This document shows, piece after piece, positions 1,715-63,065 of a DNA stretch of 64,000 nucleotides; position 1 is the stretch's first letter, and every line of letters begins with the position of its first letter. The DNA lies in contig NZ_CP025429.1 of the NCBI RefSeq assembly GCF_002848345.1, forward strand, positions 1 to 64,000, in the 5' to 3' direction. Below the pieces are notes generated by a model. That model was not told the origin of the DNA, did not search any database, and saw only the letters and a list, made by a program, of their open reading frames with translations. Both the position numbers and the translations under genes were made by a program. This DNA is from Chromobacterium sp. ATCC 53434 (GTDB lineage: Bacteria; Pseudomonadota; Gammaproteobacteria; Burkholderiales; Chromobacteriaceae).

Positions 1715-1715
<1 letters not shown>
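924..1715 (+). CDS. DeoR-family transcriptional regulator
   Basis: This 263-residue protein has a DeoR helix-turn-helix at about residues 18-58 (motif [10 protein letters not shown], then [12 protein letters not shown] and LLRRYGGAV). A DeoR C-terminal sugar-phosphate sensor domain follows, with D-S-G-T-T at about 95-99 and GADGID near 172. ATG 924 was chosen because the conserved N-terminus begins there; an upstream in-frame start at 750 would add unlike sequence. The stop overlaps the glmS start by one base (TAATG), so the two are translationally coupled. The context suggests control of amino-sugar synthesis or uptake in response to a hexosamine phosphate. The effector is not shown by the sequence. 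Confidence 0.85.
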
Positions 1716-3544
<1,829 letters not shown>

Positions 3545-3568
3545 GCCGGTTTCGCGCTCGTGATGATC
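3545..3568. other. attTn7 insertion spacer downstream of glmS
   Basis: The 24 bp between the glmS stop (3544) and the transposon terminus at 3569 correspond to the classical Tn7 insertion distance. The last five bases, TGATC (3564-3568), would be the target-site duplication if Tn7 rules hold. The partner copy at the far end is not in the window, so this is inferred. Confidence 0.7.
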
Positions 3569-3637
3569 TGTTGAGCAACAATAGAATTTGACACAAAACA
3601 ATACAATTTGACACAAGACAATAGAATTTGACACAAG
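3569..3637 (+). mobile_element. Tn7-like transposon end with three TnsB-type repeats
   Basis: The end starts with TGTTGA, a Tn7-like terminus. Three nearly identical 20-bp tandem units follow at 3578-3597, 3598-3617 and 3618-3637, each of the form ACAATAsAATTTGACACAAr. Tn7 family ends carry several copies of a ~20-22 bp TnsB-binding site. The end beside glmS with tnsA just inside corresponds to the right end of Tn7. Position, repeats and the adjacent tnsA fragment agree. Element identity beyond 'Tn7-like' cannot be told. Confidence 0.85.
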
Positions 3638-3686
3638 CAGCCCCCTTTCTATACTTCTGGTGAGTAGCTGATCACCGGAGAGTGTC

Positions 3687-3824
3687 GTGAGGGGGCGTCG
3701 CTTTAAGACTCAAGACGATATCGAGCGGTACATCGAACAGGGCTTCGGCCAAGGCGAGGGCCTGGGCTACAAGCCGTGGCTTCGCGTTCAGGACGTTCCT
3801 TCCTGCGGCCGTTCCCACAAGGGG
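3687..3824 (+). pseudogene. tnsA: tnsA fragment (Tn7-like transposase endonuclease subunit)
   Basis: A GTG start at 3687, with GGAG 7 bp upstream, opens a frame whose first ~46 residues match the N-terminus of Tn7 TnsA. The matching blocks are DIERYIEQGFGQGEGLGYKP, then WLRVQDVPSCGRSH, against the Tn7 pattern ARRIKEGRGQGHGKDYIPWL / VPSSGRSHR. TnsA cuts the 5' strands during cut-and-paste transposition with TnsB. Homology stops at an IS256 end at about 3825, so the nuclease domain is gone. No other tns gene was found nearby. The element therefore looks immobile by its own machinery. Confidence 0.9.
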
Positions 3825-4656
3825 GCGTGTACTGAATTTTGTGTAAACGGACATTTGGCAGGAAACTGCCACCTAGTCTGGAGACACAATGAGCTCGAAG
3901 AAACACGACGTACCTGACACACTACTGGACAGCTTGCTGGCCAATTACCAGAAGCCCGAAGACCTCATCGGCGAGAACGGCTTGCTCAAACAGCTCACCA
4001 AGCTGCTGGTCGAGAAAGCACTGGATGCCGAGATGGCCGCACACCTTGGCCATAGCAAACACGAGCCGGTGCTCAATCCCTCCGGTAACACCCGGAATGG
4101 CAAGAGCCGAAAGACCCTCAAGGGCGAGTTCGGTGAATTGCCTATCGAGGTACCACGCGACCGCCAGGGTACCTTTGAGCCGCAACTCATTCCCAAGCAC
4201 CAGACCCGCTGGACCGGATTCGACGACAAAGTCATCTCGCTTTACGCCCGGGGGATGACTGTTCGGGAAATTCAGGCCCATCTGGAAGAAATGTATGGCA
4301 CAGAGGTCTCACCCAGCCTGATCTCCTCCATCACGGATTCCGTCACCGAAGAGGTCAAAGCTTGGCAGGCTCGCCCTCTCGATTCGGTTTATCCAATCAT
4401 CTACCTCGACTGCATCCACGTGAAGGTACGTGAGGGGGCTGTACGCGTAAAAGCCGTCTATCTCGCCATCGGCGTTACCCTGGCTGGAGAGAAGGAGGTG
4501 CTGGGGATGTGGCTGGCGCAGACGGAGGGAGCCAAGTTCTGGCTTCAGGTCGTGACCGAACTGCGTAACCGGGGCGTACAGGACATCTTTATCGCCTGCG
4601 TCGATGGCCTGAAGGGCTTCCCGGAGGCTATCGAGGCGGTCTTCCCGAAAGCAGCC
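3825..4656 (+). mobile_element. IS256-family element, 3'-truncated copy
   Basis: The left end, beginning GCGTGTACTGAATTTTG, matches the ends of two full-length copies at 31669 and 35624. The sequence matches those copies up to 4656, where an IS3-family element begins with TGGTCTGTCCC. The IS256 3' part and right end are missing here and do not resume after the IS3. A deletion, or recombination between IS copies, must therefore have followed the insertions. The left end interrupts tnsA. Confidence 0.9.
3889..4656 (+). pseudogene. IS256-family transposase, N-terminal 256 residues
   Basis: The frame opens at ATG 3889 and matches the 408-residue transposase at 31733 over its first ~256 residues, including [11 protein letters not shown] and [11 protein letters not shown]. 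The homologous sequence ends at 4656. The remaining frame reads into the IS3 element and stops at 4725. The last catalytic acidic residue region is lost, so the product is not expected to be active. Confidence 0.9.
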
Positions 4657-4721
4657 TGGTCTGTCCCATTCCCCGTGGACACTAACTTAAGGTGGATAAT
4701 CCCCACCAAGGAGCAGTGTTC

Positions 4722-5015
4722 ATGACCAAGACCAGACGTACTTTCCCGGAGGCCCTCAAGCGCGAAGCGGTTGAGCAGGTACTTGCCGGCACCCCGTTAC
4801 GGCATGTTGCCCAAGCCTTCGACATTACCGAGTCGCTGCTGGGCAAGTGGAAGCGTCAGCTCCAAGACGCCGGACCAGATGCCTTCCCTGGCCGAGGCAA
4901 ACAGACCGGTGAAGCCGCCGAGCTCAAGCGACTGCGGGATGAGCTGGCCCGCGTTACCATGGAGCGCGATGTCCTAAAAAAGGCGCTTGCCATCTTCTCG
5001 CAACCCACGAAGTGA
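4722..5015 (+). CDS. IS3-family transposase OrfA (type A)
   Basis: This 97-residue protein starts at ATG 4722 with GGAG nearby. It has an N-terminal helix-turn-helix ([15 protein letters not shown], then [14 protein letters not shown]) and a C-terminal leucine-zipper-like heptad stretch ([20 protein letters not shown]). It binds IS ends and is normally fused to OrfB by -1 frameshifting. It overlaps the orfB start by four bases. Confidence 0.9.
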
Positions 5016-5881
5016 AATTCCGCGCGATTCACGCTCTGTCGGGCCGCTACCCGGTAGCCCCGATGTGCCAACTGTTTCGTGTGTCCCGCAGTGGCTACTA
5101 TGCGTGGCTACACCGCCCACCTTCGGCGCGAGAGATGGCGAACCGACAACTACTGCGCGAAATCCGGCTGGTGCATGCCGAGGTCAACGGTATTTATGGC
5201 CATCGGCGTATCCATGCCGAACTTCTTGCACAGGGCTTCGTCTGCGGGCGACATCGCATCGCGGACTTGATGCGGCGAAACGGTATCAGGGTTAGAGCGC
5301 GTAAACGTTGGAGACCCGCGAGCGGTGGTCAACACCTTCTACCCGTGGCGCCCAATTTGCTGCAGCGACACTTTGCTGCTGGCGGCGACATCAATCAGCG
5401 CTGGGTGTCGGACATGACCTATATCCGAACCGGTGAAGGGTGGCTGTACTTGGCGGTGGTACTCGACCTGTACTCCCGGGCGATAGTGGGCTGGGCCATG
5501 CATCATCGAATGCAGCAAGAACTGGTGCATGCTGCCCTGACGATGGCAGTGGCGCGTCGCCAGCCTTCAGGAGAGGTAATTCTGCATTCGGACCGCGGGA
5601 GTCAGTACTGTGCCTTTGACTACCAGGCGTTGCTGAAGCGGCATGGGATAGTACCGAGCCACTCCCGCGCCGGGAACTGCTGGGATAATGCAGCGATGGA
5701 GAGCTTCTTCCGTTCACTGAAATCGGAACGTGTTTATCTGACCCACTACCGGAGCTACGAGGAGGCGCGTACAGATGTGTTTGATTACATCCGTTTTTAC
5801 AATCACCAACGACGTCATTCGACCCTGGGGTATCTGACCCCGGTTGAGTTCGAACGCCGCCGCTCAGAGCTTAGCGCTTAA
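5012..5881 (+). CDS. IS3-family transposase OrfB (type A)
   Basis: This 289-residue DDE integrase-type catalytic protein carries HTH_21-like GIYGHRRIHAELL and then an rve core. The catalytic motifs are WVSDMTYI, LHSDRGSQY and NCWDNAAMESFFRSLKSE, with the usual D, D and E residues. It appears intact. It may be made as an OrfAB fusion with the 4722 gene; its own start at 5012 overlaps the orfA stop (ATGA). Confidence 0.92.
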   Translation: MKFRAIHALSGRYPVAPMCQLFRVSRSGYYAWLHRPPSAREMANRQLLREIRLVHAEVNGIYGHRRIHAELLAQGFVCGRHRIADLMRRNGIRVRARKRWRPASGGQHLLPVAPNLLQRHFAAGGDINQRWVSDMTYIRTGEGWLYLAVVLDLYSRAIVGWAMHHRMQQELVHAALTMAVARRQPSGEVILHSDRGSQYCAFDYQALLKRHGIVPSHSRAGNCWDNAAMESFFRSLKSERVYLTHYRSYEEARTDVFDYIRFYNHQRRHSTLGYLTPVEFERRRSELSA

Positions 5882-5927
5882 CCCTCTGTCCATGGGGAGT
5901 GGGACAGACCAAACCGAGCGGTCTAGT

Positions 5928-22928: not shown

Positions 22929-24165
22929 GGGCATCTCGAATAACCCAAGCTTTTCAGCAAGCCTAACAACAGCATGACGCTTGCGGCCATATTCGGATCG
23001 TTTTCTGCAACGGATCACCGCTCAACGCAGCGATTCAGCCCATTTCGGGCGTCAGAAGGCCACGATTCCGGCTTTCCGGAGGAACACCAAGCGCTTTAGG
23101 TTGTAACAGGTCGCCATCATCGTCAGCGCAAAGTTCGCGCGCGGTTGGCCAATTGTGCGGACCAACTTGCCTCCCATCTGATCAATCATGGCGAACACGT
23201 GTTCGACACGGGCACGAACCTTGGCGATGCGGTGGTTGCGCTGCTGCTGGCACTCGGACAGCGGCTTGTTGGCGTGCCCCTTTCGCTGAATCCGATTCCG
23301 AAATCTGTCTTGGGCAAGCTGCGCTCCACGGGCCTCGGACGGATAGCCTCGGTCGGCGTAAACATCCCGGCTTGTATTGCTGGTATCGAAGACGTTGTCG
23401 AAATGCTGGCTGTCATGCGTACTGGCCGTATCAGTTTTGAACTTGCGGATCAGCTTGTATTTGTTGTCGACGTTCACCGACAGTTTGTAGCCAAAGTAGG
23501 ATTTGCCGTGCTTTTTGGTCCAGCTGGCATCCTGGTCCTTCTGGCGCCGCTTCGCGGGTTTCCAATCGGCCGGCGTTGCGCCCTGATCGAGCAGCATCTT
23601 CTCGTCGCTGCTGTTGTGCTGCTTCGGCGCTGGCACCAACGTCGCGTCGATGATTTGGCCGCCGCGCGCGATATAGCCTTGCTTGAGCAATTGTGCTGAC
23701 ACGCCATCGAACAGTGCACGGGCCCCGGTTTCGCCGATCCGATTCTCGAAGGTCCAAATCGTGGTGCGGTCAGGGATGTTGACCGCCTGGCCCAGCCCAC
23801 AGAAACGCTGATAACTCATCCGGTCGAGCAGTTGATACTCCATTTGTTCATCGGACAGGTTGTACAGCCGCTTGAGGACCAGAATCCGCACCATCGTTTC
23901 GGTCGGAAACGGCGGGCGGCCGCCCTGCTGGCTGACTGGCCGAGGCGCGACCCGATCGACCTCGGCCGCCAAGGCGGCAAAGTTGATGTGCTTCTCGATC
24001 TCGACCAGAGGGTCGCCCAGGTGGTCGATCTTCTGCCGGTGGTGGTCGGCGGCGAACAGGTCTTTCTTGATGGCGTTGCGTGGTTTCATCGGGCTCAAGC
24101 TCGGCAAGAGTCTGGACGGTATAATTTTACCAGCTGAGGGCACCCCGGGGTTTTTCGAGGTGCCC
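22929..24165 (-). mobile_element. IS5-family element, GGGCACCTCGAAAAACCC type
   Basis: The left end GGGCATCTCGAATAACCC (22929) and the right end, reading inward GGGCACCTCGAAAAACCCC, form an imperfect inverted repeat. A second copy starts at 63719 on the other strand and runs off the window. A hybrid 5' end is at 44785 and a decayed 3' part at about 57980-58490. The insertion truncates the DUF2235 gene. Confidence 0.9.
23052..24089 (-). CDS. IS5-family transposase
   Basis: This 345-residue intact transposase starts at MKPRNAIKKDLFAADHHRQK (24089); upstream in-frame codons belong to the IS end. Motifs include GGRPPFPTETMVRILVLKRL, IPDRTTIWTFENRIGE, GGQIIDATLVPAPKQHN, DVYADRGYPSEARGAQL and KVRARVEHVFAMIDQMGG, giving the IS5-type DDE set. 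It ends FLRKAGIVAF. Confidence 0.92.
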   Translation of the reverse strand: MKPRNAIKKDLFAADHHRQKIDHLGDPLVEIEKHINFAALAAEVDRVAPRPVSQQGGRPPFPTETMVRILVLKRLYNLSDEQMEYQLLDRMSYQRFCGLGQAVNIPDRTTIWTFENRIGETGARALFDGVSAQLLKQGYIARGGQIIDATLVPAPKQHNSSDEKMLLDQGATPADWKPAKRRQKDQDASWTKKHGKSYFGYKLSVNVDNKYKLIRKFKTDTASTHDSQHFDNVFDTSNTSRDVYADRGYPSEARGAQLAQDRFRNRIQRKGHANKPLSECQQQRNHRIAKVRARVEHVFAMIDQMGGKLVRTIGQPRANFALTMMATCYNLKRLVFLRKAGIVAF

Positions 24166-25167
24166 ATAAGAGTGGAAAATATTGAGAAGCTTATCTTTAT
24201 TTTCAGGCGTAAACTCCTGCAGGATATTCCTATCCATTTCTTTAAGTGATTTCAATCCAACACCGGCTTTTATCGCTTCTAAGTACATTTTTCGCAATGG
24301 TATCTTAGTTAATTTCAGATTCCTACCTTGTTCATTTGGATAATATCCACCACCTACGTCAGAATGCACGCCAGGGTAAACGACTTCTTCACTATTTTCC
24401 GGGTATCGATTTTTATACTCAATTGAATCTAATGGAAACGCACGTCTAACTTCATGCGCTGATACAATGTGAACACACCGTTTCACTTCAGATGGGACTC
24501 TGATTTCACTTGCCCAATTCTTATGCAATGCTGGCCCACCGACTGATGCAACCGTATCAAAAATACCAAGGAATCCAATCTCAAGCGGAACCGGCACTCC
24601 GTAAAAGTCTAATTTATAGACTAGCTGCCCTTTTTTATTTATATCAGATTTTTCTTTTATAATTCTATTGACAAAAGCTCTTGACAAGGTCGCTCCTCGT
24701 GAAAATCCAATAACATTCACCCTTACAATTTCAATGTTCAACATGGTATTGGAGTATTTTTCCCCAAGTGTCTTTTCTATGTAGAGCATCGCATCTTTTA
24801 AGCGCATTTCGCCGCCTTTTCCAAAACCTGCTCCCATTGTCCCTCCCTTGTCTGCGCCAACTTCTGGGTTGTCTTTTGGTATATATTCAGTTCCCAATCC
24901 TGCTATATACCTGGGGAAAAATTCTTTTTCATGATCATTGTATGCCGCCAAAAATAATCTAGCCACATTGGATTTGTTATTTGGCGACACATCGTTATTG
25001 TTCATAGTGCCATCAAAGAATAAGGTAAATTTAGGGAAGAATTTTGGTGGCGTTATCTCTTGCAGAGCATTACCAAATTCACCCGATACTCTTGCCATTT
25101 TTGCAGTGGCATGGGCTTTGTCTAGCTCTGCATCACCAGTGTATTCTCCTGCTTGCCTTAACGTCAT
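24166..25167 (-). pseudogene. DUF2235 alpha/beta-hydrolase (T6SS phospholipase-like), 3'-truncated
   Basis: From ATG 25167 about 334 residues of a DUF2235 protein remain. LFFDGTMNN (50-57) is followed by the nucleophile elbow VIGFSRGATLSRAFVN (Ser156), GIFDTVASVGGPA (Asp204), VHIVSAHEVRRAFPLD and GVHSDVGGGY (His268). The Ser-Asp-His arrangement is that of Tle1-type lipases, which are often type VI secretion effectors. The frame runs into the IS5 end at 24165 and stops at 24127 with foreign residues. Core residues survive, so a shortened enzyme might still be made. No VgrG, PAAR or immunity gene is visible beside it. Confidence 0.82.
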
Positions 25168-34382: not shown

Positions 34383-35468
34383 ATGAAAAGTAAGTGTATA
34401 AAAATGCTCTGTGGCTTCGCATTGTGTTTTGTCGCTGGCGGAACAGTAGCGGAAGACAGCCTTAAGCCTGAACAGTATCCGGTGGAGTGTCAGCCATCCA
34501 GAGGCACTGTGCCGTCCTGGCTAAACAGGCTGATACAACAGGGACATGTTTCCGCCAGCAGTTATGTCAATCAGTTCTGGTACAAAGACTGGCTAAGCAC
34601 AACGCTCAGCACCTGCACGGATCTGAGCGAGATAGACGGGCGACGCTTTAACGACGGAAAACTGAATACAACCAATATTTACTGGCGAACCGACAGCAGG
34701 CCACAGTTCCGTGGCGGCAGTGCCGGTAAGGGCAGAGACGTTAGCGATATCTTTGTTGAGGGAATTTATCCCTGGAAGTATGATGGGGAGCTACTGGCAT
34801 TCAGTGGCATCAGCAATCATAATTCTGGACTCGTTAATACAGGATATAATGCATATTATATTTTTGGTAAAGGTTATGGTGTTGCCGGAGGAGGCGTTGG
34901 TTTTATCATTGATGCTCCAGGTGGTATCAATCAGGGTCTGATAATTTTTGACCCTGCAAATAAAACCGTAAACAACGGAAGCCTCCATCACCTACCAGAT
35001 ACCACGGCTCCACAAGATATTCAAAAAAAGGGCCACGACACGATTGTCTTCCCTGGAGGGGTTCGGGCAGAATATATAAAAGGGGCCTTTAAACAGAATG
35101 CTACGACCCACAATCTTGAGTATTTTTCTAACCCGCATTACCGTTATCCTGCTCCTCTGTCGAATGAATTTGATCTGGTCATGTCTGACCCAATGAGCGG
35201 CGATGAAAAATACGATAAAGGGAGCATTGAAATATCGAGTCGCAATATAACCACGTCTGCTGCCCCTCAGGGGAAGGCTGCTGGGGGGGTAGCCTATCGT
35301 TACATGAAAGGGGAGTCTGTAACGGTCAGTATCAAAGAAGGTCGCCCTGACTATTGCTGGTATGTCAACATGAAAAAGAGAAGCACGCCAACGACAGCCC
35401 CTCTGGTCCTGACCATGGAGGACCAGACTCTGCCGGTAGCCGTTGTATACAGGGATAAATGCCAGTAA
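34383..35468 (+). CDS. Secreted ADP-ribosyltransferase-like toxin, degenerate catalytic motif (copy 1)
   Basis: This 361-residue protein starts at ATG 34383 with GAGGTG upstream and a signal peptide of ~23 residues ending GGTVA. The NAD-binding Arg motif IYWRTDSRPQF (Arg102) and DIFVEGIYPW resemble the pertussis/cholera-toxin class, and FPGGVRAEYIKGAF resembles their GGI..IxG segment. Where the related protein at 40237 has E-F-E before IAFPGGI, this one has H218-D219-T220 before IVFPGGV. The STS block is SGISNHNS. The catalytic Glu therefore appears absent. It may be a non-enzymatic homologue, use another residue, or bind a partner. Identical to the product at 61980. Confidence 0.7.
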   Translation: MKSKCIKMLCGFALCFVAGGTVAEDSLKPEQYPVECQPSRGTVPSWLNRLIQQGHVSASSYVNQFWYKDWLSTTLSTCTDLSEIDGRRFNDGKLNTTNIYWRTDSRPQFRGGSAGKGRDVSDIFVEGIYPWKYDGELLAFSGISNHNSGLVNTGYNAYYIFGKGYGVAGGGVGFIIDAPGGINQGLIIFDPANKTVNNGSLHHLPDTTAPQDIQKKGHDTIVFPGGVRAEYIKGAFKQNATTHNLEYFSNPHYRYPAPLSNEFDLVMSDPMSGDEKYDKGSIEISSRNITTSAAPQGKAAGGVAYRYMKGESVTVSIKEGRPDYCWYVNMKKRSTPTTAPLVLTMEDQTLPVAVVYRDKCQ

Positions 35469-40156: not shown

Positions 40157-40236
40157 GGCTGTTTGGATTTGTAGCTTTTTACTATTACGTACTAATCTCG
40201 CCAACTTTTTCACTGCATCGCGGGAGATTGTTTATC

Positions 40237-41658
40237 ATGGCGCCTTTACATTTTTACCGGACATTACAAGGACTCCTGGTTACTGCTGCGCTGTCTGCCA
40301 GCATGCCGTTGTTTGCCGCAGATACCCTGCCGGAGTCCTGCCAACCAGGGCCAGATAAGGTTCCCCCTTGGATTGCGAGCCTGCCAGAAGCGATGGCTAA
40401 ACCGGTTTATCTTGACCAGCCTTGGTATCAGGACTGGCTCACGACCACACTTAGCCTGTGTACGAACCTGACCCAACTTCCGCTGGACAACCGTCCCCAA
40501 ATGCAGATTATCTGGCGTGGTCATTCGGAAGATGAGCAGGGGCCGCTGTTCAATGGTGCCGGGAACCATCACTATGAAATCCAAGATGTCTTTCAACACG
40601 GAATTTCCGTTATCGATCCGGTCGGATCGCTGAAATTACGGCCTGGGGTCGGCAGCGACACCAATAGTGCTCTTAAGAGTACTTCGTATTCTCGAGATGT
40701 GGCTGCCAGCTTCGCGATAAGTAGCAACAATCTGAAACATTACATCTACGTTTTGAATCCTCCCGGAGGTATCGCTGTCGACCAATCACTGGGGTGGCCG
40801 GAATCTCAGAGTGAATTCGAAATTGCCTTTCCCGGCGGCATCCAGTCCCGCTGGATCAAGGGTGTTTTTGAAGTTGCTAGGCAAGAACAGGGGAATCCAC
40901 ATGAAGAGGGAGGTTATTATCGCCTGTTTGCAAAACCCATACATTACACGCCCAACCCGCACTATGAACATGCGGGGGTAGCGCCTGGTACGGACGAAGT
41001 GGATGTGATCGTGTCTCGCAGCAACCCGCATCTCCGGATTCAAATGGCACCAGCCGGGATGCTGGTAGATACTCACACTTGGCGACTGCCGGTCAAGGAC
41101 ACGCTCAATACGGCATCGTATTCTGTGCAGACCTTGGACCATTCCCCAATATACTGGACCGGTTTTCAAGCAGGGGGAGCGTCAGGGCAAATGTATGATA
41201 ATTTCCCCGCCCGAGCGAGCTGCGCGGTATTTGGTCCGCAACTGCAGGTGGACCGAACTTTGGCTATCAATGCAGATGCCGCTAAATCGAACATGGTTTC
41301 ACGCCTGGACGGGTTATGTTCCTATATTAATGATCCACTTGCGATTCAGGTTCAGCATGTCGAGGCACATGTGATTTACGATCTGGCTCACCCCGGCCAG
41401 GTGATTTCAGGTATCCAGATGAAATGGCAGTTACCCCCAGCGGGTCTAGCTCCACACATCAAGGGATACCGGATTTATGGTGTAAAATCGGACCGTACTC
41501 TGGACTTGCTGCACACGGTCAACAATCCCGAGGTAACCAGCGCTACCTTCCTACCAGCTGACGTATCCCAGTATTTTGGGCAGTACCTGTTGGTGGCCAG
41601 TGAACTCGATACTCAGCCGGCATCGGAAAGTGATCTGGTAGTCGCTGTATTGAAATAA
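40237..41658 (+). CDS. Secreted ADP-ribosyltransferase toxin with C-terminal beta domain
   Basis: This 473-residue protein starts at ATG 40237 (GGAG upstream) and has a signal peptide ending MPLFA. The ART domain spans residues ~70-260: IIWRGHS with Arg94, LKSTSYSRDVAASFA with Ser148-Thr-Ser150, and SEFEIAFPGGI with Glu193-Phe-Glu195, the full R-S-E set of the cholera/pertussis toxin class. The C-terminal ~100 residues (AHVIYDLAHPGQVISGIQMK, IKGYRIYGVKSDRTLDLL) look like a fibronectin-type beta-sandwich that could bind a receptor. It is a homologue of 34383, which has lost the Glu pair. No B-subunit-like gene is adjacent. Substrate unknown. Confidence 0.75.
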   Translation: MAPLHFYRTLQGLLVTAALSASMPLFAADTLPESCQPGPDKVPPWIASLPEAMAKPVYLDQPWYQDWLTTTLSLCTNLTQLPLDNRPQMQIIWRGHSEDEQGPLFNGAGNHHYEIQDVFQHGISVIDPVGSLKLRPGVGSDTNSALKSTSYSRDVAASFAISSNNLKHYIYVLNPPGGIAVDQSLGWPESQSEFEIAFPGGIQSRWIKGVFEVARQEQGNPHEEGGYYRLFAKPIHYTPNPHYEHAGVAPGTDEVDVIVSRSNPHLRIQMAPAGMLVDTHTWRLPVKDTLNTASYSVQTLDHSPIYWTGFQAGGASGQMYDNFPARASCAVFGPQLQVDRTLAINADAAKSNMVSRLDGLCSYINDPLAIQVQHVEAHVIYDLAHPGQVISGIQMKWQLPPAGLAPHIKGYRIYGVKSDRTLDLLHTVNNPEVTSATFLPADVSQYFGQYLLVASELDTQPASESDLVVAVLK

Positions 41659-46838: not shown

Positions 46839-48842
46839 ATGTCTTCCTCCCGACGAAATAATATTTCGCAACAGTTCTGGTTCATCCAGATAGTTGCGAT
46901 ATTGATTGGTTGCCTGGTCTGCAAGCCTGTTCGCGCAGATGACGCCACCACAGGGGCTACGCTGGCCAATCGGCTGACTAGCTTGTATCGGCAGGGTGCC
47001 GCTACTTGTGAGGACACCTTACCGCTGTGCGCTGGTCTTTTGATCCGTGAAGTGAGCGCGCTTCCCACCAATGGTAAGACTTGGTATCTGCACGCAGACG
47101 CGGCCAGCTCGACCAACCCGTTTACCGCTAAGCCGGATCTGACCGGGCTGGTCTTCCCGGCAGACGCAGGCCAACAAACGACGCGGCCATACTGTGCGTT
47201 GCCAGGCGCACCTACAGACGAAAACCGCACCGCCTATGGATGCTGGCCCGCCACGGAAGCAGACCATACCGGGGATTCCGATCGCTCTTCCTGCAGCGAT
47301 TTGCTGGTGAAGTATGGGGGCGATGTCACCATGAGTAACTGGTTGAAGCGGAACGCTGACAAGCAGCCGGCATGCTCGTTCAGCGTCCAGCACAAAACTG
47401 AGTTCCAGCAGGCTTTACTAACCAGTGCTCATCAGTCTGCCCCGCTGTTGTTACCGATGCCTGAATGGCCAGCCTCGGCCCTTGATCCCGCCAACCTGCC
47501 CACGCGGGCAGTGGTTTATGCCGCGGGCTCCAATCAAGGCAAAGCCAATGCCGAAACGCTGCAGCAAACCCTAGAGAACGAAGGGGTGCACGTCTTGCGA
47601 GTCGCGTTGGATACGGCTAAAGGTGAGTTCCGCTATGAGCCTACCGTGGTGATACCGAGCTTTGATATGTCTGCCTTGCGTAAGTTGATACTAGATGGCA
47701 CTGACACCAAACTAGATTTTTACCTTTCTGGCACTTCAAACCACCAGTCGCCTACAATCTTTACAAATAACGGTTATCTGCAACTACACCCAGCAACTTC
47801 TTTTGGTGTAAGTGGATCTAGAATGCCGGCTTATGGTCTGATAAAGGATGGGAGCCGTACGAAGGGAATATTCTATGTACCAACCCATAACATTACTGAC
47901 GATGCCAACCTTATATATGCCTTGAAATATCAAGCTACAAAAATGGACACCGATCATCAAGTATATCCCATTTTCAAAATTGATACAGGTGGACAAGACG
48001 CCATTTCTCCTACTGGCAGTATAAGCATCATTTCACAAATAAATGTATCTGGGCCTAATCCGTATGCCACCATGGTGGCAAAAATTAAGGAATTGAACAT
48101 ACGCTTCAACAGTAAGATTTCAGGCTGTGGCCTTGATGAGCATGGTGGCAAGAAGCCGGCGTTTTTCTGTTCTGGATTGATCATGCGGTCGACGAATCAT
48201 ATCAGCCCCTTGCCGAATGCGATGGTGGCGTCCCATTATTTTATCCGAGCCGACACGCATACCATAAATCAGTGGGCCGCTTATGTTGGTATCATTTTAA
48301 AGCCAACGACGGAACTAGCGAAAAACTGGTTGAAATGCATCTATCCACGTGATGCGGCTACGTGGTTCCCGGGGGCACGTACCAAAGAGAATTACCTGTG
48401 TAGCGGCGGCGGCAGCGCCATACCGGCAAATGTGAATGACCCCAGTTCTTGCTCGCATGCTCTTCTGGGCTTGGGCTCCGGCGCAACTGCGGCGGAGTGG
48501 GCTGCTGCCTTTCAGAATAAATACCCCTCCACTATGGGAGAGAGTCAATGCAGTTTCAGTGTGCAAGACGCGAATCAATTCGCAGCAGCTATTCAGGTGT
48601 CAGGTACCAATGTTGCGAAAAACTTCGGCTACTCTTGGAATGAGTTGATTGTGAAGCCATGGACAGATGCGAGTATCCCAGAAATAGAAGCCATTTTTTG
48701 GACTCCGCGGCCTGACAAAAAATTTTATGACGAAGATTTTGATAAGGCCAATGCATTGGCTAATCAATATAAATTGAAAACAAATAAGTTGGTGCCAGTG
48801 GTGAAAGTCGATTTATTTAATAACGTTGTGAGTATGCCATAA
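46839..48842 (+). CDS. Tandem two-domain halovibrin-like secreted protein
   Basis: This 667-residue protein has GGAG upstream and a signal peptide (QIVAILIGCLVCKPVRA). The C-terminal half (about 410-667) has the family pattern: FFCSGLIMRST, SHYFIRADT, KCIYPRDAATWFPGA, SGGG, CSFSVQDA, NELIVKPW, EIEAIFW and LVPVVKVDL. The N-terminal half repeats it with changes: LCAGLLIREVSA, WYLHADA, YGCWPATEADHTGDSDRSSC, KQPACSFSVQHKTEFQQALL, PTRAVVYAAGSNQGKA, VVIPSFDM. It is about twice the length of the relatives at 13237 and 43345. One half may be non-catalytic. No obvious immunity gene. Confidence 0.65.
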   Translation: MSSSRRNNISQQFWFIQIVAILIGCLVCKPVRADDATTGATLANRLTSLYRQGAATCEDTLPLCAGLLIREVSALPTNGKTWYLHADAASSTNPFTAKPDLTGLVFPADAGQQTTRPYCALPGAPTDENRTAYGCWPATEADHTGDSDRSSCSDLLVKYGGDVTMSNWLKRNADKQPACSFSVQHKTEFQQALLTSAHQSAPLLLPMPEWPASALDPANLPTRAVVYAAGSNQGKANAETLQQTLENEGVHVLRVALDTAKGEFRYEPTVVIPSFDMSALRKLILDGTDTKLDFYLSGTSNHQSPTIFTNNGYLQLHPATSFGVSGSRMPAYGLIKDGSRTKGIFYVPTHNITDDANLIYALKYQATKMDTDHQVYPIFKIDTGGQDAISPTGSISIISQINVSGPNPYATMVAKIKELNIRFNSKISGCGLDEHGGKKPAFFCSGLIMRSTNHISPLPNAMVASHYFIRADTHTINQWAAYVGIILKPTTELAKNWLKCIYPRDAATWFPGARTKENYLCSGGGSAIPANVNDPSSCSHALLGLGSGATAAEWAAAFQNKYPSTMGESQCSFSVQDANQFAAAIQVSGTNVAKNFGYSWNELIVKPWTDASIPEIEAIFWTPRPDKKFYDEDFDKANALANQYKLKTNKLVPVVKVDLFNNVVSMP

Positions 48843-49006
48843 GGTAGATTGTCAGGTGCTGATCATCGGTGCTGGTGAAATAATTTTTCTTAGTAATATG
48901 ATGGCATTATGAAGAGGGTCACAGTAAACCGAGAGTGCATCGACGCTGTAGCGCGAAAAGCACATGTAGATATCATTTTCGAATTAGATTGTTTGGAGTG
49001 AATGAA

Positions 49007-51562
49007 ATGGGAAAAATTAAATTCAATGACCTCAGTAAATTAACGGTCAAGGACAATGATATTGAAACTTGGATTAGCGAAACACATTATGCAGACGACT
49101 GGTTCGTAGGAAAAGACAGTCCTGTTCAGGCGCTTGGATCCCATAATGATGGCGCAGTGTGGAAAAGCGATATTTCCTCTGGTGTTAAATTGTGTCTGAA
49201 GGGGATTCCCGGCGAGATTTATGTCACCATCAAACTCGAAAAAGATAATAAGTACACATTTAGGTGGGCTGATTCGAGGGATCACCATGGCAGTGCGTCG
49301 GTGCCGGCTGACCAATACACAGTGTACATCAGCCAGACATCTGGGGTATTGCCCAGTAATGCAACGGCGAATTATAAGGCAACTTATACGAGTGCCAAGG
49401 AGGGCTGGGGTTCCCCGTCTTTTCCATTTACACCGACAGCTACAGGAACCTATTACCTTTCTTTCAGAGGTGTCAGACAACCAGGTGGCCAAGCCCGTGG
49501 TGCGATTATTAGTCAAGTGACTTGCGAAGCAGAAAATACGATATCGGAAAAACTGAACGTCAAGCTGGATACAGGAGCTGAGATCACGCTGAAACAGGGG
49601 CAAGCAAATGATCAGCCAATATTGATGCATCTAGTGAACGAGCATGGGGGGGGCGTCGGGGATGCCCATCTTGTGCTGACGTTAGAGAATGGGGATGCCC
49701 AGGTGATGTTTAACGTCGAGGGCAATCCGCAGCAGCAAAAATTTACGACGGATAGCGACGGAGGGCTGGTGGGTAATTTCACGCTGCGTAAGGAGCAGCT
49801 GAAGGCGGGCACCAAAATTGGTGGTGCCAAATTGCATGTGTCAATGAATAGCGAACTGATTGGCACGGTGAATATTCGCGTGGTAGCAAGCACGGCATGG
49901 GCGCTGGTAGCCGACCCGACGACAGTGACGGTTGACGTAAGCGGCAGCAAGGACGTGAAGCTAATCCTGAAAGAAGATGGGATAGGCAAGATAGGCGAGG
50001 TGCTGGAGGTCGATATCGATAAAGAAAATATCTCCGGTGAGAAAACGCTGAAAACAGACACCGATGGAGTGGCGACGCTTAAGCTGGGAGGAAAAATCCC
50101 GGGTACAGCCACTGTCACGGTCACCCACACGCGTTCGAAGGCCCAGGCTATCGTGAAGGTGGAAGTCACTGCGGTGACCGGCAAACATTATACCCTCAAA
50201 CCAGAGCCGGCCACGCTGAAGGTGGAACTCAGCACCCAGAAGGATTTTAAGGTCGTGGTCTGGGACAACAGCAAGAACCAGGCGGCGGGCCGGGGGATAG
50301 CCGTGACAGTGACGGTCGATTCCAAAGATCTTAAAGATCTTAAAGTGGGGCCGAATACGGATCAGACCACCGATACGAAAACGACCGATGACCAAGGCGA
50401 GGTTACTTTTACTTTTGCGGGCACTAAACCGGAAACCACCACCCTGACCCTGAGCGCCAGCGACGCTGAAGAAGTTAAGATTCCACTCTCAGTGGGCGTC
50501 AGTTCGACTTTGTACCTGATCCAATCCGATAAACCAGCGGTTTCCATCTTGGCTGGGCAAACCATTGCCAATGCCCCCATCCACATTAGTGTGGTGCCGC
50601 ATGACGGGGATGCGCCGAAAATAGTGCACTTCAACATCATTAAAACCGGCCTGTTCGTCATGGTAAAGGCGAAGGACGCGATTTGGCGGACTCACGGTGA
50701 CATCGTGCTCGATAAAAATGGCAATGGCATTATTGACGAGATTCGAGCAGCAAATATCACAGAAAAGACATATCAAATCGACTTGACCGCTACTGACGCA
50801 AAGCCGATCTCAATACCCGTGACCGTGCAGTCGCTAATGCTGAACGTACAGCCCGCAAGCACAGATGCAAATCCGTTAAGCCTGCCGGGAGCTGGTCAGG
50901 ATCCGATGCCAATCACCTCCGGCATGACTGGATGCGTTGTCATGGTTTCGCTAGCAGAGACTCATCCTCTAAAACCCGCACCGGTAGGGACCGAGGTCGA
51001 TTTCGTGATAGTCAATCCTTCCAGCGCATCGAATTTAGCACAATTCGTACTTGCTGGGGGAGCATTAGACTTGAAGGCGTCTGGGCAGGTTAAGAGTGAA
51101 ACTGGGCTGATTGCCTTGCCAACTTTCAAGCTTACCAACAGCCAGCTTGGGCATTTCCATATCGATGTGTATGCGAAAGGCCAGACAATACCGGCCGGAC
51201 ACTTCTATTTTTTGGTTAGAGAAGCACAGCCTATCGTAAAGATTGAATTTGATGCGGAGAAGCATACTGGCACAGGCGGCTATCCTTTTTCCCCCGGATA
51301 TGTGGTGGCATATGTCAACGATCACGAGAGAGTTCCGGCTATGCCAGGGGAGGGGAGGGTGAACTTCACCATTGAAGGGCCTAATACGTATTATTTCACC
51401 GGCAGTGAGCCCCATTCTCAAACGGCATCGGTGTTGATCGGCCGTGGTGGGCGAGCAGTTATTCCTCAAATCACGCTTGAGACGGCTGCCGGAAGCTTTA
51501 CGATTCTTGCGTCTTCTGGGAATGCCAAGGCCACTAAGTCCAATCCGTACGAGGTGGATTAA
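49007..51562 (+). CDS. Large Ig-like (Big_1/invasin-type) repeat protein
   Basis: This 851-residue protein starts at ATG 49007 after TTGGAG; 48935 is an alternative without a site. Residues 1-180 form a separate beta-rich domain (YADDWFVGKDSPVQALGSHN, YYLSFRGVRQPGGQARGAII). At least five Ig-like units follow, with the D-x-x-G-x-A/V hallmark (TTDSDGGLVGNFTLRKEQLK, KTDTDGVATLKLGGKIPGTA, TTDDQGEVTFTFAGTKPETT). No signal peptide, membrane anchor or sorting signal is seen, unlike invasins. It overlaps the next gene by one base. Role as a tail-, needle- or surface-associated protein is speculative. Confidence 0.75.
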   Translation: MGKIKFNDLSKLTVKDNDIETWISETHYADDWFVGKDSPVQALGSHNDGAVWKSDISSGVKLCLKGIPGEIYVTIKLEKDNKYTFRWADSRDHHGSASVPADQYTVYISQTSGVLPSNATANYKATYTSAKEGWGSPSFPFTPTATGTYYLSFRGVRQPGGQARGAIISQVTCEAENTISEKLNVKLDTGAEITLKQGQANDQPILMHLVNEHGGGVGDAHLVLTLENGDAQVMFNVEGNPQQQKFTTDSDGGLVGNFTLRKEQLKAGTKIGGAKLHVSMNSELIGTVNIRVVASTAWALVADPTTVTVDVSGSKDVKLILKEDGIGKIGEVLEVDIDKENISGEKTLKTDTDGVATLKLGGKIPGTATVTVTHTRSKAQAIVKVEVTAVTGKHYTLKPEPATLKVELSTQKDFKVVVWDNSKNQAAGRGIAVTVTVDSKDLKDLKVGPNTDQTTDTKTTDDQGEVTFTFAGTKPETTTLTLSASDAEEVKIPLSVGVSSTLYLIQSDKPAVSILAGQTIANAPIHISVVPHDGDAPKIVHFNIIKTGLFVMVKAKDAIWRTHGDIVLDKNGNGIIDEIRAANITEKTYQIDLTATDAKPISIPVTVQSLMLNVQPASTDANPLSLPGAGQDPMPITSGMTGCVVMVSLAETHPLKPAPVGTEVDFVIVNPSSASNLAQFVLAGGALDLKASGQVKSETGLIALPTFKLTNSQLGHFHIDVYAKGQTIPAGHFYFLVREAQPIVKIEFDAEKHTGTGGYPFSPGYVVAYVNDHERVPAMPGEGRVNFTIEGPNTYYFTGSEPHSQTASVLIGRGGRAVIPQITLETAAGSFTILASSGNAKATKSNPYEVD

Positions 51563-52608
51563 TGATGGCAGACGATCTCAATGTGCGTTACCACCTGTCT
51601 ATAGTAAATGAGTACCCGCCAACACTGCCTGAACCTGAGGAAACGACCAAGTTGATGTTTAAGGTTCTGGATATGAGCGATGGGGCCAGTGCACCCGGTG
51701 TTGGGGTCTCAGTGGCATTCACCCTTCATTTTCTGGATAAACTGACTTTCCAGGAAGGAAAAACACCGGCAGTGGCATTGCTTGAAACTGGCTCATGGGC
51801 ACAAGGTGTGGTTACCGAGTCTGATCGAAATGGTCTGGCTACAGCCTATCTGAAGCAGGGGGCGTTAAATGTTGATGTTAATCTGGAGGTGAACATCCCT
51901 CCATTCACTGATACTTTGCGTGATCAGAAATTTCACCTCAAGTCAAAAACGGTTGTGCCAAAGGTAGATGTTAAAAAACTGGTTCTAGTCAGTGGGGACC
52001 GGCAATTTACGACACTGGATGGAGAGCCGTTTCATATCCTTGAGGTTCAGGCGTTGGGCGAAAAAAACGTGCCGCTTGAGAAGGCAAATATTCAGTTTCA
52101 AGTGCAGGGAAGTACGGGGAGCCAGACGGCGACTGCAGAGCCCACCAAATCAGATGGTAAAACACATGTTCTGCTGACAAAAGGGACGGTCCCTGGCGTT
52201 TTTACCGTTACGGCTAACAGTGGCAGCGCTGAGCCCGTGGTTTTTCATCTTGCATTGGGTCCAAACTATACAGATCTGGAAATATGGGTAAGTTCCCCCA
52301 TTAGTATTTCATCCCATTTTATGGTGGTAGATTGTCCGGCGAAGATTCGGACGAAGGGACAAGCAGACGGATGGCCTTATGCCCATGGGCAAGTGTCTCT
52401 CATCAGTCCTGAGATCAGATTGGTACCAAATAGTTTACCTCCAGACAGGGAGTTAATCTCTGGCGACAAGGGTGAGCTGTTGGTCATCAATACCACGCAT
52501 GCGCCACAGTTTACTGCTGTCGCTAAATCTGGTAGTGCTCGTGCCCAATTCATTATGATGGCGGGTGGCAAGCCACTACTAGGCACTGCAACATTTAAGA
52601 TTACTTAA
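51562..52608 (+). CDS. Ig-like repeat protein, second gene of the operon
   Basis: This 348-residue protein starts in the TAATG overlap with the previous gene. About three Ig-like units are seen (KLMFKVLDMSDGASAPGVGV, VTESDRNGLATAYLKQGALN, TKSDGKTHVLLTKGTVPGVF, GDKGELLVINTTHAPQFTAV). There is no signal peptide and no Cys-rich or catalytic motif. Translational coupling suggests a fixed stoichiometry with the 851-residue protein. Confidence 0.72.
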   Translation: MMADDLNVRYHLSIVNEYPPTLPEPEETTKLMFKVLDMSDGASAPGVGVSVAFTLHFLDKLTFQEGKTPAVALLETGSWAQGVVTESDRNGLATAYLKQGALNVDVNLEVNIPPFTDTLRDQKFHLKSKTVVPKVDVKKLVLVSGDRQFTTLDGEPFHILEVQALGEKNVPLEKANIQFQVQGSTGSQTATAEPTKSDGKTHVLLTKGTVPGVFTVTANSGSAEPVVFHLALGPNYTDLEIWVSSPISISSHFMVVDCPAKIRTKGQADGWPYAHGQVSLISPEIRLVPNSLPPDRELISGDKGELLVINTTHAPQFTAVAKSGSARAQFIMMAGGKPLLGTATFKIT

Positions 52609-52704
52609 CAAGATGAATGTGCTGTCATGATTTGAGTTGGTCTGCTGGACGAATAAAGGAAAGCAGGCCGGTTTGTGGTTGTTTCAACTTTTGGAGTCAA
52701 TGAT

Positions 52705-54810
52705 ATGTCTGTAATTGCTACGAGTCCCGACCAAGATCACTTGGCGCTGGATGGAACTAAAAAATTTGGGGCCGTCTGGATCAGCCATACGGCTTCTCCT
52801 TCTACGGTGTGGGCTGGCGAGCTTGCAGCAGAAAAAGGAACCGACGTATCGGTGTTTCGGCTGACCGGTGGTGCTCCCTCTTGGACGAAGCATGAGAAGG
52901 TGGCACTGCCGTACCCATCATATGCGAAGAAGGCGAGTGATCAGACAGCCCCTTGGGTCTCAGGTATTGTGGTGGACCAAAAAAATCAGGTCTGGATAAG
53001 TGATTACCAGAATGGTGTACTGTACCGTATTGATGGAAGTCAGACGACTCTGCCGCCGGAAGCGACGATTATTTATAGCGAGCTTAATGCTCAATTTGTT
53101 GATATTGCGCTACAGGCGGACAGTAAGGGCCAACGAGTGTGGGTGCTCGATTCAGATAAGGCCACACTTTACGCGTTTGAATTGGAGGCAAAGGCCACTA
53201 GCAATCCTGCAAAAAAGATTATATTGCGTTCGAATTCTACTGCTGATCACGTTGCCTATGATGTGGATACCAACACACTCTGGGTGACGGTCAGGGACAA
53301 TCAGGATGACAAGTATTCGTTATGCTCTATAAATGTGGCTGAGGACATGCCGACTCCCCATTTTTATGATGTGGAGGCTGGAATTGTGGCTCCTAAGATG
53401 ATCAAGTCCGGGGGCAAGGGGGGGCGCCTTTATCTGGGTACCGGGACAGGCAAGGTAGTTTGCTACGATATCAGCGGTGGCGCAGCTAAGCAGCCGAGTA
53501 AGGTGTGGGAAACGCCAGTCCTGAAAAATGGCTCTGACGCGATCTCTGTCGAGTATTTGGAGGTGGATGCCGCCGGATATATTTGGTTTGGGGACAGCAG
53601 CAATGAAACCCACCCAGGCGTGATCTATGGGTTGGAGCCTGAGCGCGGTGAGCTGCAGGCCCAATTCAACTTGAAAAATGTGACTAGCACCGTCCAGCCG
53701 ATGGGGCTTGCCTGGGACCCGGCATCGGACTATCTGTTAGTTAGCGATGACAATCCAAATGGTGGCCTTGTTTGGGTGAGCTTGAAGGATGCCGGTCCAA
53801 TTGACAAGGATGGCAAGGCAAAGTACACACTGGCCTTCGAGCCGCTAGAAGGCAGCGCTGTGGCAAAGGCTGTTTTTGGCCCCATTACGCTGAAGGCTAC
53901 TTTCGAAGCGAAACCCTTGGCCGTTCCTGTCATGCTGAGCATTGACGATAAGAGCCTTGCTAAGCTCACGTCTACCCCAGCGTCGACATCGGTGCCGACC
54001 GGAGGACTGGTCATTAAGGATCTGACCGCAGAGGATCAAGCAGGCAAAACGTTTGTATTGACAGCGTCGGGTCGCGGGAATCTCCAGGGTAAATTTAAGG
54101 GGATGATTGATTTTAATATTAAACAACTGGATTTTAGTCCTAACAAAAAGCGTTATGCACAACAAGGAGATGACTTCCCTATTGATGCTGATACGCCAGT
54201 ACTGAAGTCAGATCCTGCTGACCTTAAGGCACAGGTCAAACTTAAAGTAACCGGTGGGATATTCCCTACGGTGAGCAAGGATGAATCGGATATGAAAATC
54301 GGGGAAAAAATTCCTGCCGTTAAGGCAGGGAAAAAGGCCGGGGATCTTGTGATTACCGCGACCGCTCAGAATGGTAAACAGGCAGTTCTTACCTGGAAGG
54401 TATTGGCTACGCCGACAGAGACACAGGGTCGGGCGGCGATTACATTTAACCGTCACAGTATTCCAACGCAGGCGAAGGATTACCCGTATCACCTGATGGG
54501 ACACGAGGACTCCACCAACCCAAGTAGCAAATTGATAGGGGTTGGACCATGGAGCGTGCGAGTCACCATTGATCCAGCGGTGAGCGGTGTCAAATTCAAA
54601 GCCGGCGCATCGGTAAAGATGGATTCTGCTGGACAATGGATTGAATTAATGTCTGCGGAAGATACTGGATTGGTAAATATCCCGTATGAAAAACTTGAAA
54701 TAAGTACTGCAGTCTCTCACCTAAGGCTCACTATCCGTGCTAATACCAAGCGAGAAGGTGGGGGGGTGGATAGCTTGGCGCCATTAGACGTGCCCATTAA
54801 GATACAGTAA
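52705..54810 (+). CDS. Beta-propeller plus Ig-like protein, third gene of the operon
   Basis: This 701-residue protein starts at ATG 52705 after TTTTGGAGTCAATGAT, nearly the same leader as the 49007 gene. Residues ~1-370 have NHL/SMP-30-like propeller blades (VSGIVVDQKNQVWISDYQNG, VDIALQADSKGQRVWVLDSD, VAYDVDTNTLWVTVRD, LEVDAAGYIWFGDSSN, LAWDPASDYLLVSDDNP). The rest is Ig-like beta domains. No signal peptide. A strong terminator follows at 54857, so the three genes 49007-54810 are probably one unit. Confidence 0.72.
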   Translation: MSVIATSPDQDHLALDGTKKFGAVWISHTASPSTVWAGELAAEKGTDVSVFRLTGGAPSWTKHEKVALPYPSYAKKASDQTAPWVSGIVVDQKNQVWISDYQNGVLYRIDGSQTTLPPEATIIYSELNAQFVDIALQADSKGQRVWVLDSDKATLYAFELEAKATSNPAKKIILRSNSTADHVAYDVDTNTLWVTVRDNQDDKYSLCSINVAEDMPTPHFYDVEAGIVAPKMIKSGGKGGRLYLGTGTGKVVCYDISGGAAKQPSKVWETPVLKNGSDAISVEYLEVDAAGYIWFGDSSNETHPGVIYGLEPERGELQAQFNLKNVTSTVQPMGLAWDPASDYLLVSDDNPNGGLVWVSLKDAGPIDKDGKAKYTLAFEPLEGSAVAKAVFGPITLKATFEAKPLAVPVMLSIDDKSLAKLTSTPASTSVPTGGLVIKDLTAEDQAGKTFVLTASGRGNLQGKFKGMIDFNIKQLDFSPNKKRYAQQGDDFPIDADTPVLKSDPADLKAQVKLKVTGGIFPTVSKDESDMKIGEKIPAVKAGKKAGDLVITATAQNGKQAVLTWKVLATPTETQGRAAITFNRHSIPTQAKDYPYHLMGHEDSTNPSSKLIGVGPWSVRVTIDPAVSGVKFKAGASVKMDSAGQWIELMSAEDTGLVNIPYEKLEISTAVSHLRLTIRANTKREGGGVDSLAPLDVPIKIQ

Positions 54811-54856
54811 CCCTGGTAGAGAAGCGATCAGACTTCGGTATATGACAGTGTTCAAG

Positions 54857-54887
54857 AAAGGCTTCATTGACGTAATGGGGCCTTTTT
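54857..54887 (+). terminator. Rho-independent terminator of the Ig/propeller operon
   Basis: AAAGGCTTCATT and AATGGGGCCTTTTT form a hairpin with a short GACGT loop and a T-run, 46 bp after the 52705 gene stop. The remaining ~320 bp to the autotransporter are AT-rich. They contain one 68-codon frame at 54892 that I do not believe, and probably the autotransporter promoter. Confidence 0.8.
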
Positions 54888-55213
54888 ATCTATGCAATTT
54901 TGTGCATCTTACAGTGAGAATTTTGCCGTTATGATTTTGGCAGAGCGGTACAGATGCCATGCCATTGGCATTAATATGCAAATAATATATAATTTAAATT
55001 ATCAATATGCCATACAAAATAAGACAAATCTGAAAATAGCGCTTTTAAACCTTGTTCTTCCTAAGACAGTTAGACTTCGGAGCTTCTTTGATAAATAGTG
55101 CTTTGATTATGATAGACAAAGGCTTTGAAAAAGAAGCGCATTTGATTGTGCGTCGATCCCATACGGCTTTCCAAGTGAATGGAAGAAAAATTTCTTTTTA
55201 GGAGGATGTGCTT

Positions 55214-61979: not shown

Positions 61980-63065
61980 TTACTGGCATTTATCCCTGTA
62001 TACAACGGCTACCGGCAGAGTCTGGTCCTCCATGGTCAGGACCAGAGGGGCTGTCGTTGGCGTGCTTCTCTTTTTCATGTTGACATACCAGCAATAGTCA
62101 GGGCGACCTTCTTTGATACTGACCGTTACAGACTCCCCTTTCATGTAACGATAGGCTACCCCCCCAGCAGCCTTCCCCTGAGGGGCAGCAGACGTGGTTA
62201 TATTGCGACTCGATATTTCAATGCTCCCTTTATCGTATTTTTCATCGCCGCTCATTGGGTCAGACATGACCAGATCAAATTCATTCGACAGAGGAGCAGG
62301 ATAACGGTAATGCGGGTTAGAAAAATACTCAAGATTGTGGGTCGTAGCATTCTGTTTAAAGGCCCCTTTTATATATTCTGCCCGAACCCCTCCAGGGAAG
62401 ACAATCGTGTCGTGGCCCTTTTTTTGAATATCTTGTGGAGCCGTGGTATCTGGTAGGTGATGGAGGCTTCCGTTGTTTACGGTTTTATTTGCAGGGTCAA
62501 AAATTATCAGACCCTGATTGATACCACCTGGAGCATCAATGATAAAACCAACGCCTCCTCCGGCAACACCATAACCTTTACCAAAAATATAATATGCATT
62601 ATATCCTGTATTAACGAGTCCAGAATTATGATTGCTGATGCCACTGAATGCCAGTAGCTCCCCATCATACTTCCAGGGATAAATTCCCTCAACAAAGATA
62701 TCGCTAACGTCTCTGCCCTTACCGGCACTGCCGCCACGGAACTGTGGCCTGCTGTCGGTTCGCCAGTAAATATTGGTTGTATTCAGTTTTCCGTCGTTAA
62801 AGCGTCGCCCGTCTATCTCGCTCAGATCCGTGCAGGTGCTGAGCGTTGTGCTTAGCCAGTCTTTGTACCAGAACTGATTGACATAACTGCTGGCGGAAAC
62901 ATGTCCCTGTTGTATCAGCCTGTTTAGCCAGGACGGCACAGTGCCTCTGGATGGCTGACACTCCACCGGATACTGTTCAGGCTTAAGGCTGTCTTCCGCT
63001 ACTGTTCCGCCAGCGACAAAACACAATGCGAAGCCACAGAGCATTTTTATACACTTACTTTTCAT
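61980..63065 (-). CDS. Secreted ADP-ribosyltransferase-like toxin, degenerate motif (copy 2)
   Basis: This 361-residue protein is identical to the product at 34383, on the opposite strand. It has the same signal peptide, the Arg102 motif and H-D-T in place of ExE. The shared 160 bp upstream, with the GAGGTG ribosome site, mean that both copies can be expressed alike. Dosage or sequence-backup effects are possible. The identity indicates a very recent duplication. Confidence 0.7.
   Translation of the reverse strand: MKSKCIKMLCGFALCFVAGGTVAEDSLKPEQYPVECQPSRGTVPSWLNRLIQQGHVSASSYVNQFWYKDWLSTTLSTCTDLSEIDGRRFNDGKLNTTNIYWRTDSRPQFRGGSAGKGRDVSDIFVEGIYPWKYDGELLAFSGISNHNSGLVNTGYNAYYIFGKGYGVAGGGVGFIIDAPGGINQGLIIFDPANKTVNNGSLHHLPDTTAPQDIQKKGHDTIVFPGGVRAEYIKGAFKQNATTHNLEYFSNPHYRYPAPLSNEFDLVMSDPMSGDEKYDKGSIEISSRNITTSAAPQGKAAGGVAYRYMKGESVTVSIKEGRPDYCWYVNMKKRSTPTTAPLVLTMEDQTLPVAVVYRDKCQ

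Follow-up and report, generated by a model that had tools for sequence, protein, structure and literature searches.

Tn7 inserts about 25 bp past the stop codon of glmS. Tn7-like islands at glmS are already known, as stated in the accessible part of PMC3384475, and nested insertion sequences are common in Tn7-like elements according to the available sections of PMC8649781, so that the finding of a broken Tn7-like element at this site is ordinary in itself. A complete element of ~33.6 kb, similar in its right end to the locus described here, is present on a Burkholderia contaminans plasmid (NZ_CP102465.1). It contains tnsA, tnsB (with a Mu-type transposase C domain), tnsC (AAA/TniB), and a TniQ gene with a TnsD-like part, and it has three contiguous sites at its right end, three spaced sites in the opposite orientation at its left end, and CTACC directly outside both ends. 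This anatomy fits that given for Tn7 in the accessible text of PMC11406308. Judged from its size, its tnsA-B-C-tniQ gene order, and its metal cargo, the element appears to be BGImetal, as far as that island is described in the available part of PMC10702557. In this study, we analysed the first 64 kb (hereafter, the window) of the single 5.14-Mb contig of Chromobacterium sp. ATCC 53434, where a stub of such an element was noticed downstream of glmS. No published description of this Chromobacterium stub was found among titles and the starts of abstracts, in a collection that mostly lies outside the subscription literature.

A Tn7-like right end and a tnsA fragment downstream of glmS

The attTn7 target gene glmS occupies 1715..3544 on the plus strand (609 codons, stop TAA), and its 3' end aligns at 82-95% to the glmS locus of all 18 same-genus relatives. 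A spacer of 24 bp, read from the sequence (3545..3568, plus strand), separates the stop codon from the right-end terminus TGTTGAGC (3569..3576, plus strand), which was defined by an alignment of five ends and starts at base 25 past the glmS stop. The last five bases of the spacer, TGATC (3564-3568), are a presumed target duplication for which no second copy was found, and the bases preceding the end, TGATGATC, are unlike the TGACTA(G) seen in most relatives. Directly after the terminus lie three contiguous 20-bp direct repeats, RACAATANAATTTGACACAA (3577..3636, plus strand; starting at 3577, 3597, and 3617), which are 95-100% alike and are presumed to be TnsB-binding sites. With up to three mismatches allowed, the 17-base core of the repeat occurs four times in the window against 0.42 expected, a number reached in 0 of 100 shuffles; the fourth match, at 29626, has three mismatches and is at chance level. 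The exact core is found genome-wide only in the three right-end copies, which score 29-31 with a weight matrix. Thus a first-pass annotation of the window, which had proposed a TGTTGA terminus 25 bp past the glmS stop with repeats behind it, was right on both points, with 24 bases between stop and terminus and three copies of the repeat. A TGT terminus with an array of apparent TnsB-type sites is the arrangement of a Tn7-like right end, and its location 24 bp past the glmS stop, with the right end proximal, is that of an attTn7 insertion.

A short leader separates the repeats, ending at 3636, from the GTG start of a frame at 3687, which was identified by homology searches as an N-terminal tnsA fragment of 45 codons (3687..3821, plus strand). 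As in Tn7-like elements, tnsA adjoins the right end, here with its N-terminal 45 codons only. The fragment matches the solved Tn7 TnsA in PDB (E 5.2e-8) and 75 plasmid records at E <=1e-5, the plasmid-borne TnsA relatives showing up to 79% identity to it; among the 30 plasmid matches listed, 25 have a TnsA-type name and five have another name or are unannotated there. The phage records searched with the fragment gave no TnsA match. A profile search against TnsA had been suggested as a check, its failure counting as contrary evidence, and the Pfam scan of the 45 codons found nothing, because the Pfam TnsA models begin beyond the point where the fragment stops, aligning to residues 91-273 of the intact TnsA from B. 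contaminans.

The same right end in other genomes

Five right ends align from an identical TGT: those of the window, C. vaccinii MWU205, one further genome from the order-wide search (G358), the B. contaminans plasmid, and a Paraburkholderia phymatum plasmid. The flanks are unrelated to glmS in three of the five (G358 and the two plasmids). A Polaromonas plasmid with a TnsA of 79% identity, in which two weaker sites were found by score, was excluded from this alignment. The tnsA fragment matched 15 of 399 genomes in the order-wide search, and TnsA identity above 70% was seen, beside the genome itself, only in G358 (87%) and G074 (73%); no such repeats were found, by eye, upstream of the TnsA-like gene of G074. 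On these sequence grounds, the window contains the right end of the Tn7-like lineage to which the B. contaminans element belongs.

Like the window, C. vaccinii MWU205 (G017, NZ_JZJL01000058.1) has this right end and the start of tnsA at glmS, with 85% identity over 380 query bases, glmS tail included. Unlike in the window, its end lies 26 bp rather than 24 bp from the glmS stop, the preceding pentamer differs, and tnsA is cut earlier, by an insertion sequence like the IS3-type element of the window (94.6-94.8%). No distal end was found in the 20 kb of contig scanned in MWU205, 4.4 kb of which is downstream of glmS. The two insertions could share one old event. No uninterrupted relative with the same sequence and no distal element, which the first-pass annotation had named as contrary evidence, was found.

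Nested insertion sequences and the missing left end

The tnsA frame is cut by the left part of an IS256-type element (3821..4656, plus strand), which starts at ~3821-3823 and shows no difference over its 836 bp from a full copy at 31.7 kb. Its ORF matches Pfam Transposase_mut (E 2e-82), in agreement with the proposed interruption of a tnsA N-terminus by IS256. Inside this copy is an IS3-type insertion (4657..5911, plus strand). The deletion junction is presumed to be the right border of this insertion, and ORFs of its other copy have rve and HTH_21 domains. The right part of IS256 is absent after IS3 and, within the 124 kb searched, was found only inside two full copies. Because a simple insertion would leave both halves, the missing right half indicates that sequence was deleted or rearranged at the border of IS3. 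The same IS3 recurs as a split inverted copy at 65732-63229, which ends at ~65.73 kb, where GC-rich sequence resumes; given the position of this copy, recombination between the IS3 copies may have shaped the island.

The matching distal end, with inverted repeats and a second TGATC, that the first-pass annotation had anticipated did not turn up. Neither pattern nor weight matrix searches found a left end with spaced inverted sites in 3.8-73.5 kb, there was no second cluster of sites genome-wide, and a junction search for a TCAACA terminus beside a second TGATC found none. The best minus-strand score in 3.8-73.5 kb was 12.9, compared with a mean maximum of 13.0 (sd 2.4) in 60 dinucleotide-based shuffles; by the same scoring, the left-end sites of the B. 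contaminans element reach 28.8, 15.2, and 26.9. Weak sites (score >=9) number nine on the minus strand of the island versus a simulated mean of 4.15, and are scattered and unclustered; the closest two are 379 bases apart and were therefore not read as an end. With up to three mismatches, the pattern gave 21 sites genome-wide versus 5 for a reversed control. The 18 of these beyond the right end were considered as ends and rejected, being scattered with the nearest two ~17.6 kb apart.

The transposition genes are likewise missing beyond the fragment. The Tns proteins of the intact relative, compared with 104 kb plus 20 kb upstream (which is also the scope of the tnsC search), matched the tnsA fragment and otherwise gave three matches at E 0.78-0.99. 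No tnsB or tniQ of the B. contaminans family was found genome-wide, with distant matches only, at 2.38 and 4.04 Mb. Pfam TnsD had no match in this genome; in the genus, it was found in 3 of 19 genomes at E <=0.001, two of these over the curated cut-off. As a separate observation, two other gene sets of the contig (C1:2384334-2388332 and 4041321-4043376) contain distant TnsA/TnsB-like matches, and no relation of either to the stub was seen.

The island and its borders

Past glmS, the GC content falls from 0.69 to 0.39-0.59, as measured in 2-kb windows, and recovers after ~65 kb; synteny with relatives resumes at 73542. When 15 relatives were compared over 4-58 kb downstream of glmS each, the block conserved at 73542 was found 3.5-14 kb from glmS in five of them (G018, G016, G007, G003, and G010), whereas it lies 70 kb from glmS in the genome of the window; in the other ten, this block was not seen within the stretch compared. 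A later piece (76695 in the coordinates used here) lies 31.6 kb on in G001, so that long insertions are not unique to the genome of the window.

A sequence that follows glmS directly in six relatives (type (i), described below) provides a candidate far border of the island, outside the window. It has one genome-wide match at E <=0.001, at 69905-69958 (E 5.9e-5), ~66.4 kb downstream of glmS; the stem of this match on the other strand gives E 0.0013, and the other five matches listed have E 0.11-4.8. The match is 78% over 54 bases, about half of which is terminator stem. In all, the type (i) sequence is present in 9 of 19 genus genomes, namely the six with it at glmS, G008 (~3 kb on), G011 (on another contig), and the genome of the window (66.4 kb on). 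The distant downstream position, in this genome, of a motif that relatives have after glmS argues for one or more insertions between glmS and 69905, and we regard these as no more than probable, the match being short and partly terminator stem. A degenerate 15-base pattern, built post hoc from the 69905 site and thus not evidence, gave one exact match and nine at <=1 mismatch, compared with one in the control. Segments of the GC-rich sequence at 65.7-69.9 kb have matches elsewhere on the chromosomes of relatives, and these together with the broken IS256 at the IS3 border point to a composite. Separately, a dispersed repeat of ~140 bp at C1 ~66716-66858 has many copies in this and related genomes.

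The interval does look as if it was gained at attTn7 as a layered, IS-rich island, although its being the cargo of a single transposon is not demonstrated. The first-pass annotation had placed an island at attTn7, which agrees with the GC fall, the synteny, and the 69905 motif; its further claim, that the whole stretch is Tn7-like cargo, cannot be shown because no distal end was found.

Several genes within the island can be described. A Pfam Scabin-like domain, presumably of the ADP-ribosyltransferase family, is present in three ORFs (34383-35468, 61980-63065 on the minus strand, and 40228-41658), and the first two have equal length and identical Pfam scores, which suggests that they probably arose by duplication. 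An ORF at 24127-25167 (minus strand) has a T6SS Tle1-like phospholipase domain. A cluster of large ORFs at 46839-57790 includes ORFs of 667, 875, and 711 aa with no Pfam or NCBIfam match, a 348-aa ORF with a Big_1 match below cut-off, and an 860-aa autotransporter/pertactin protein. An insertion sequence of ~1.13 kb with a DDE_3 transposase occurs in five copies (11590, 25573, 30463, 41820, and 59885) that are 99.9% alike, suggesting recent spread.

Origin of the stub

We interpret the locus, with a probability of about 0.87, as the right-end remnant of a Tn7-like transposon. After insertion at attTn7, the element would have been broken, and its inactive stub now borders a variable island. The element is a Tn7-like remnant, not a working transposon, and the decayed Tn7-like end at attTn7 that the first-pass annotation had recognised is upheld by the right end, its position, and the TnsA homology. 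The transposon would have entered attTn7 in the orientation that places its right end and tnsA beside glmS, presumably by means of tnsA, tnsB, tnsC, and a glmS-recognising TniQ/TnsD protein, a machinery since lost with its genes. IS256 landed in tnsA after codon 45, and IS3 then in that IS256. A deletion or rearrangement at the right border of IS3 would have taken the right part of IS256 together with the remainder of tnsA and, presumably, the tns operon, perhaps as a single deletion, and the left end would have been lost likewise. The remaining stub would then be the left border of a ~66 kb variable island (3569 to ~69905), remodelled by insertion sequences, the whole of which presumably descends from one or more insertions at attTn7.

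Alternatively, 3569 to ~69.9 kb may be one Tn7-like transposon, with the toxin-like and adhesin-like genes included as cargo. The lower-GC, IS-rich stretch does start at the right end, the post-glmS motif of relatives lies just beyond, at 69905, and insertion sequences, above all IS3, are often nested within Tn7-like cargo according to the available sections of PMC8649781. However, no left end was found, the minus-strand maximum of 12.9 being at the simulated level, and some of the GC-rich sequence at 65.7-69.9 kb has counterparts at other chromosomal positions in relatives; we consider a single transposon unlikely. It is far less probable that the stub arrived already dead, through an IS-mediated rearrangement or some other event, rather than by transposition into attTn7. 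Although the island is rich in insertion sequences and only one end remains, no base is missing from the outer edge of the terminus, which lies 24 bases off the glmS stop and in the orientation of Tn7, and MWU205 has the same end 26 bases from the stop. Finally, 20-bp-spaced AATAAAG-type repeats follow glmS in most relatives too, but we give almost no credence to the repeats being a native glmS 3' feature of the genus with a TnsA-like frame by chance, since repeats and TnsA frame co-occur in other genera and flanks, once with a complete tns operon, and the fragment matches solved TnsA at E 5e-8.

Sequences downstream of glmS in the genus Chromobacterium

The sequence at the glmS stop was read in each of the 18 same-genus relatives, which were then grouped by eye. 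Type (i) arrays (6/18) consist of TGACTAGAGC and GAATAAAGTCCGTCGG-like repeats with a GGGGCC terminator, type (ii) arrays (5/18, degenerate in G010) of TGATCRGAAAGAATAAAGTCTGTCACG with an AGGCCC terminator, and type (iii) ends (3/18) of TGT followed by ACAATAAA-type repeats. In G014, which has a type (iii) end, a Pfam TnsA match begins ~455 bases past glmS; the left ends of the type (iii) elements in G014, G002, and G005 were not found in the 18-38 kb searched. The remaining relatives, one each, have the window-type end (G017), another end with tns-like genes (G012), an IS21-like element (G008), and a degenerate array (G013). TGTCCGC after glmS in G008 was considered as a Tn7-like end and rejected, the ORFs being read by eye as istB/istA of an IS21-type element. 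That attTn7 is in use in the genus is exemplified by G012, in which a bounded 36.5-kb attTn7 island has inverted ends, TGTARGCGGTAAATAGAARCGTTGG, alike in 23 of 25 bases, CTAGTG on both sides, and TnsA-, TnsB-, and TniQ/TnsD-like genes.

The type (ii) right end at glmS in G011 and an inverted left end on another contig are alike in 24 of 25 bases, and this left end is followed by ACTAG and then by a type (i) array. The type (ii) right ends of G018, G001, and G003 have ACTAG in front of them; the right end of G011 reads GACT there, and the target-duplication pair was thus not seen in one genome for type (ii) ends. In G008 and G006, inverted sites lie directly left of an array. These arrangements suggest that type (ii), and perhaps type (i), arrays may be transposon ends with a built-in terminator; four G011 ORFs scanned contained no tns genes, and for this reason we offer it as a hypothesis. 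With some doubt, Chromobacterium attTn7 might be a stack of old transposon ends, some of which left a built-in terminator for glmS. Each insertion would move earlier ends farther from glmS, and a terminator directly behind the site array, present in the right ends of some families, would stay for glmS once the rest of the element is gone. In the genome of the window, the layer at 69905 would then be an end that predates the stub at 3569.

Comparison with known systems

In this Chromobacterium genome, the stub defines one edge of a large IS-rich island that includes toxin-like genes, gives the exact right-end sequence for a Tn7-like lineage common to Chromobacterium, Burkholderia, and Paraburkholderia, and indicates that attTn7 is a much-used site in Chromobacterium. 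As described in the available part of PMC3384475, CMGI-E of Cupriavidus metallidurans CH34 is, like the island of the window, a Tn7-like island broken by insertion-sequence recombination; unlike it, CMGI-E is not at attTn7, and its separated tns genes are still in the CH34 genome. The B. contaminans element, taken to be BGImetal, shares with the window an 8-bp right end and three contiguous 20-bp sites of the same sequence class followed by tnsA, and the N-terminus of its TnsA is 75.6% identical to the window fragment over 45 residues. Unlike the stub, which is without everything past tnsA codon 45, this element is complete, lies on a plasmid, and carries metal-resistance cargo. Compared with prototype Tn7 as given in the accessible text of PMC11406308, the right end here has three contiguous 20-bp sites instead of four partly overlapping 22-bp sites. 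The window resembles prototype Tn7 in the TnsA homology of its fragment, seen in the PDB match, in the targeting of glmS, and in having the att sequence outside the right end.
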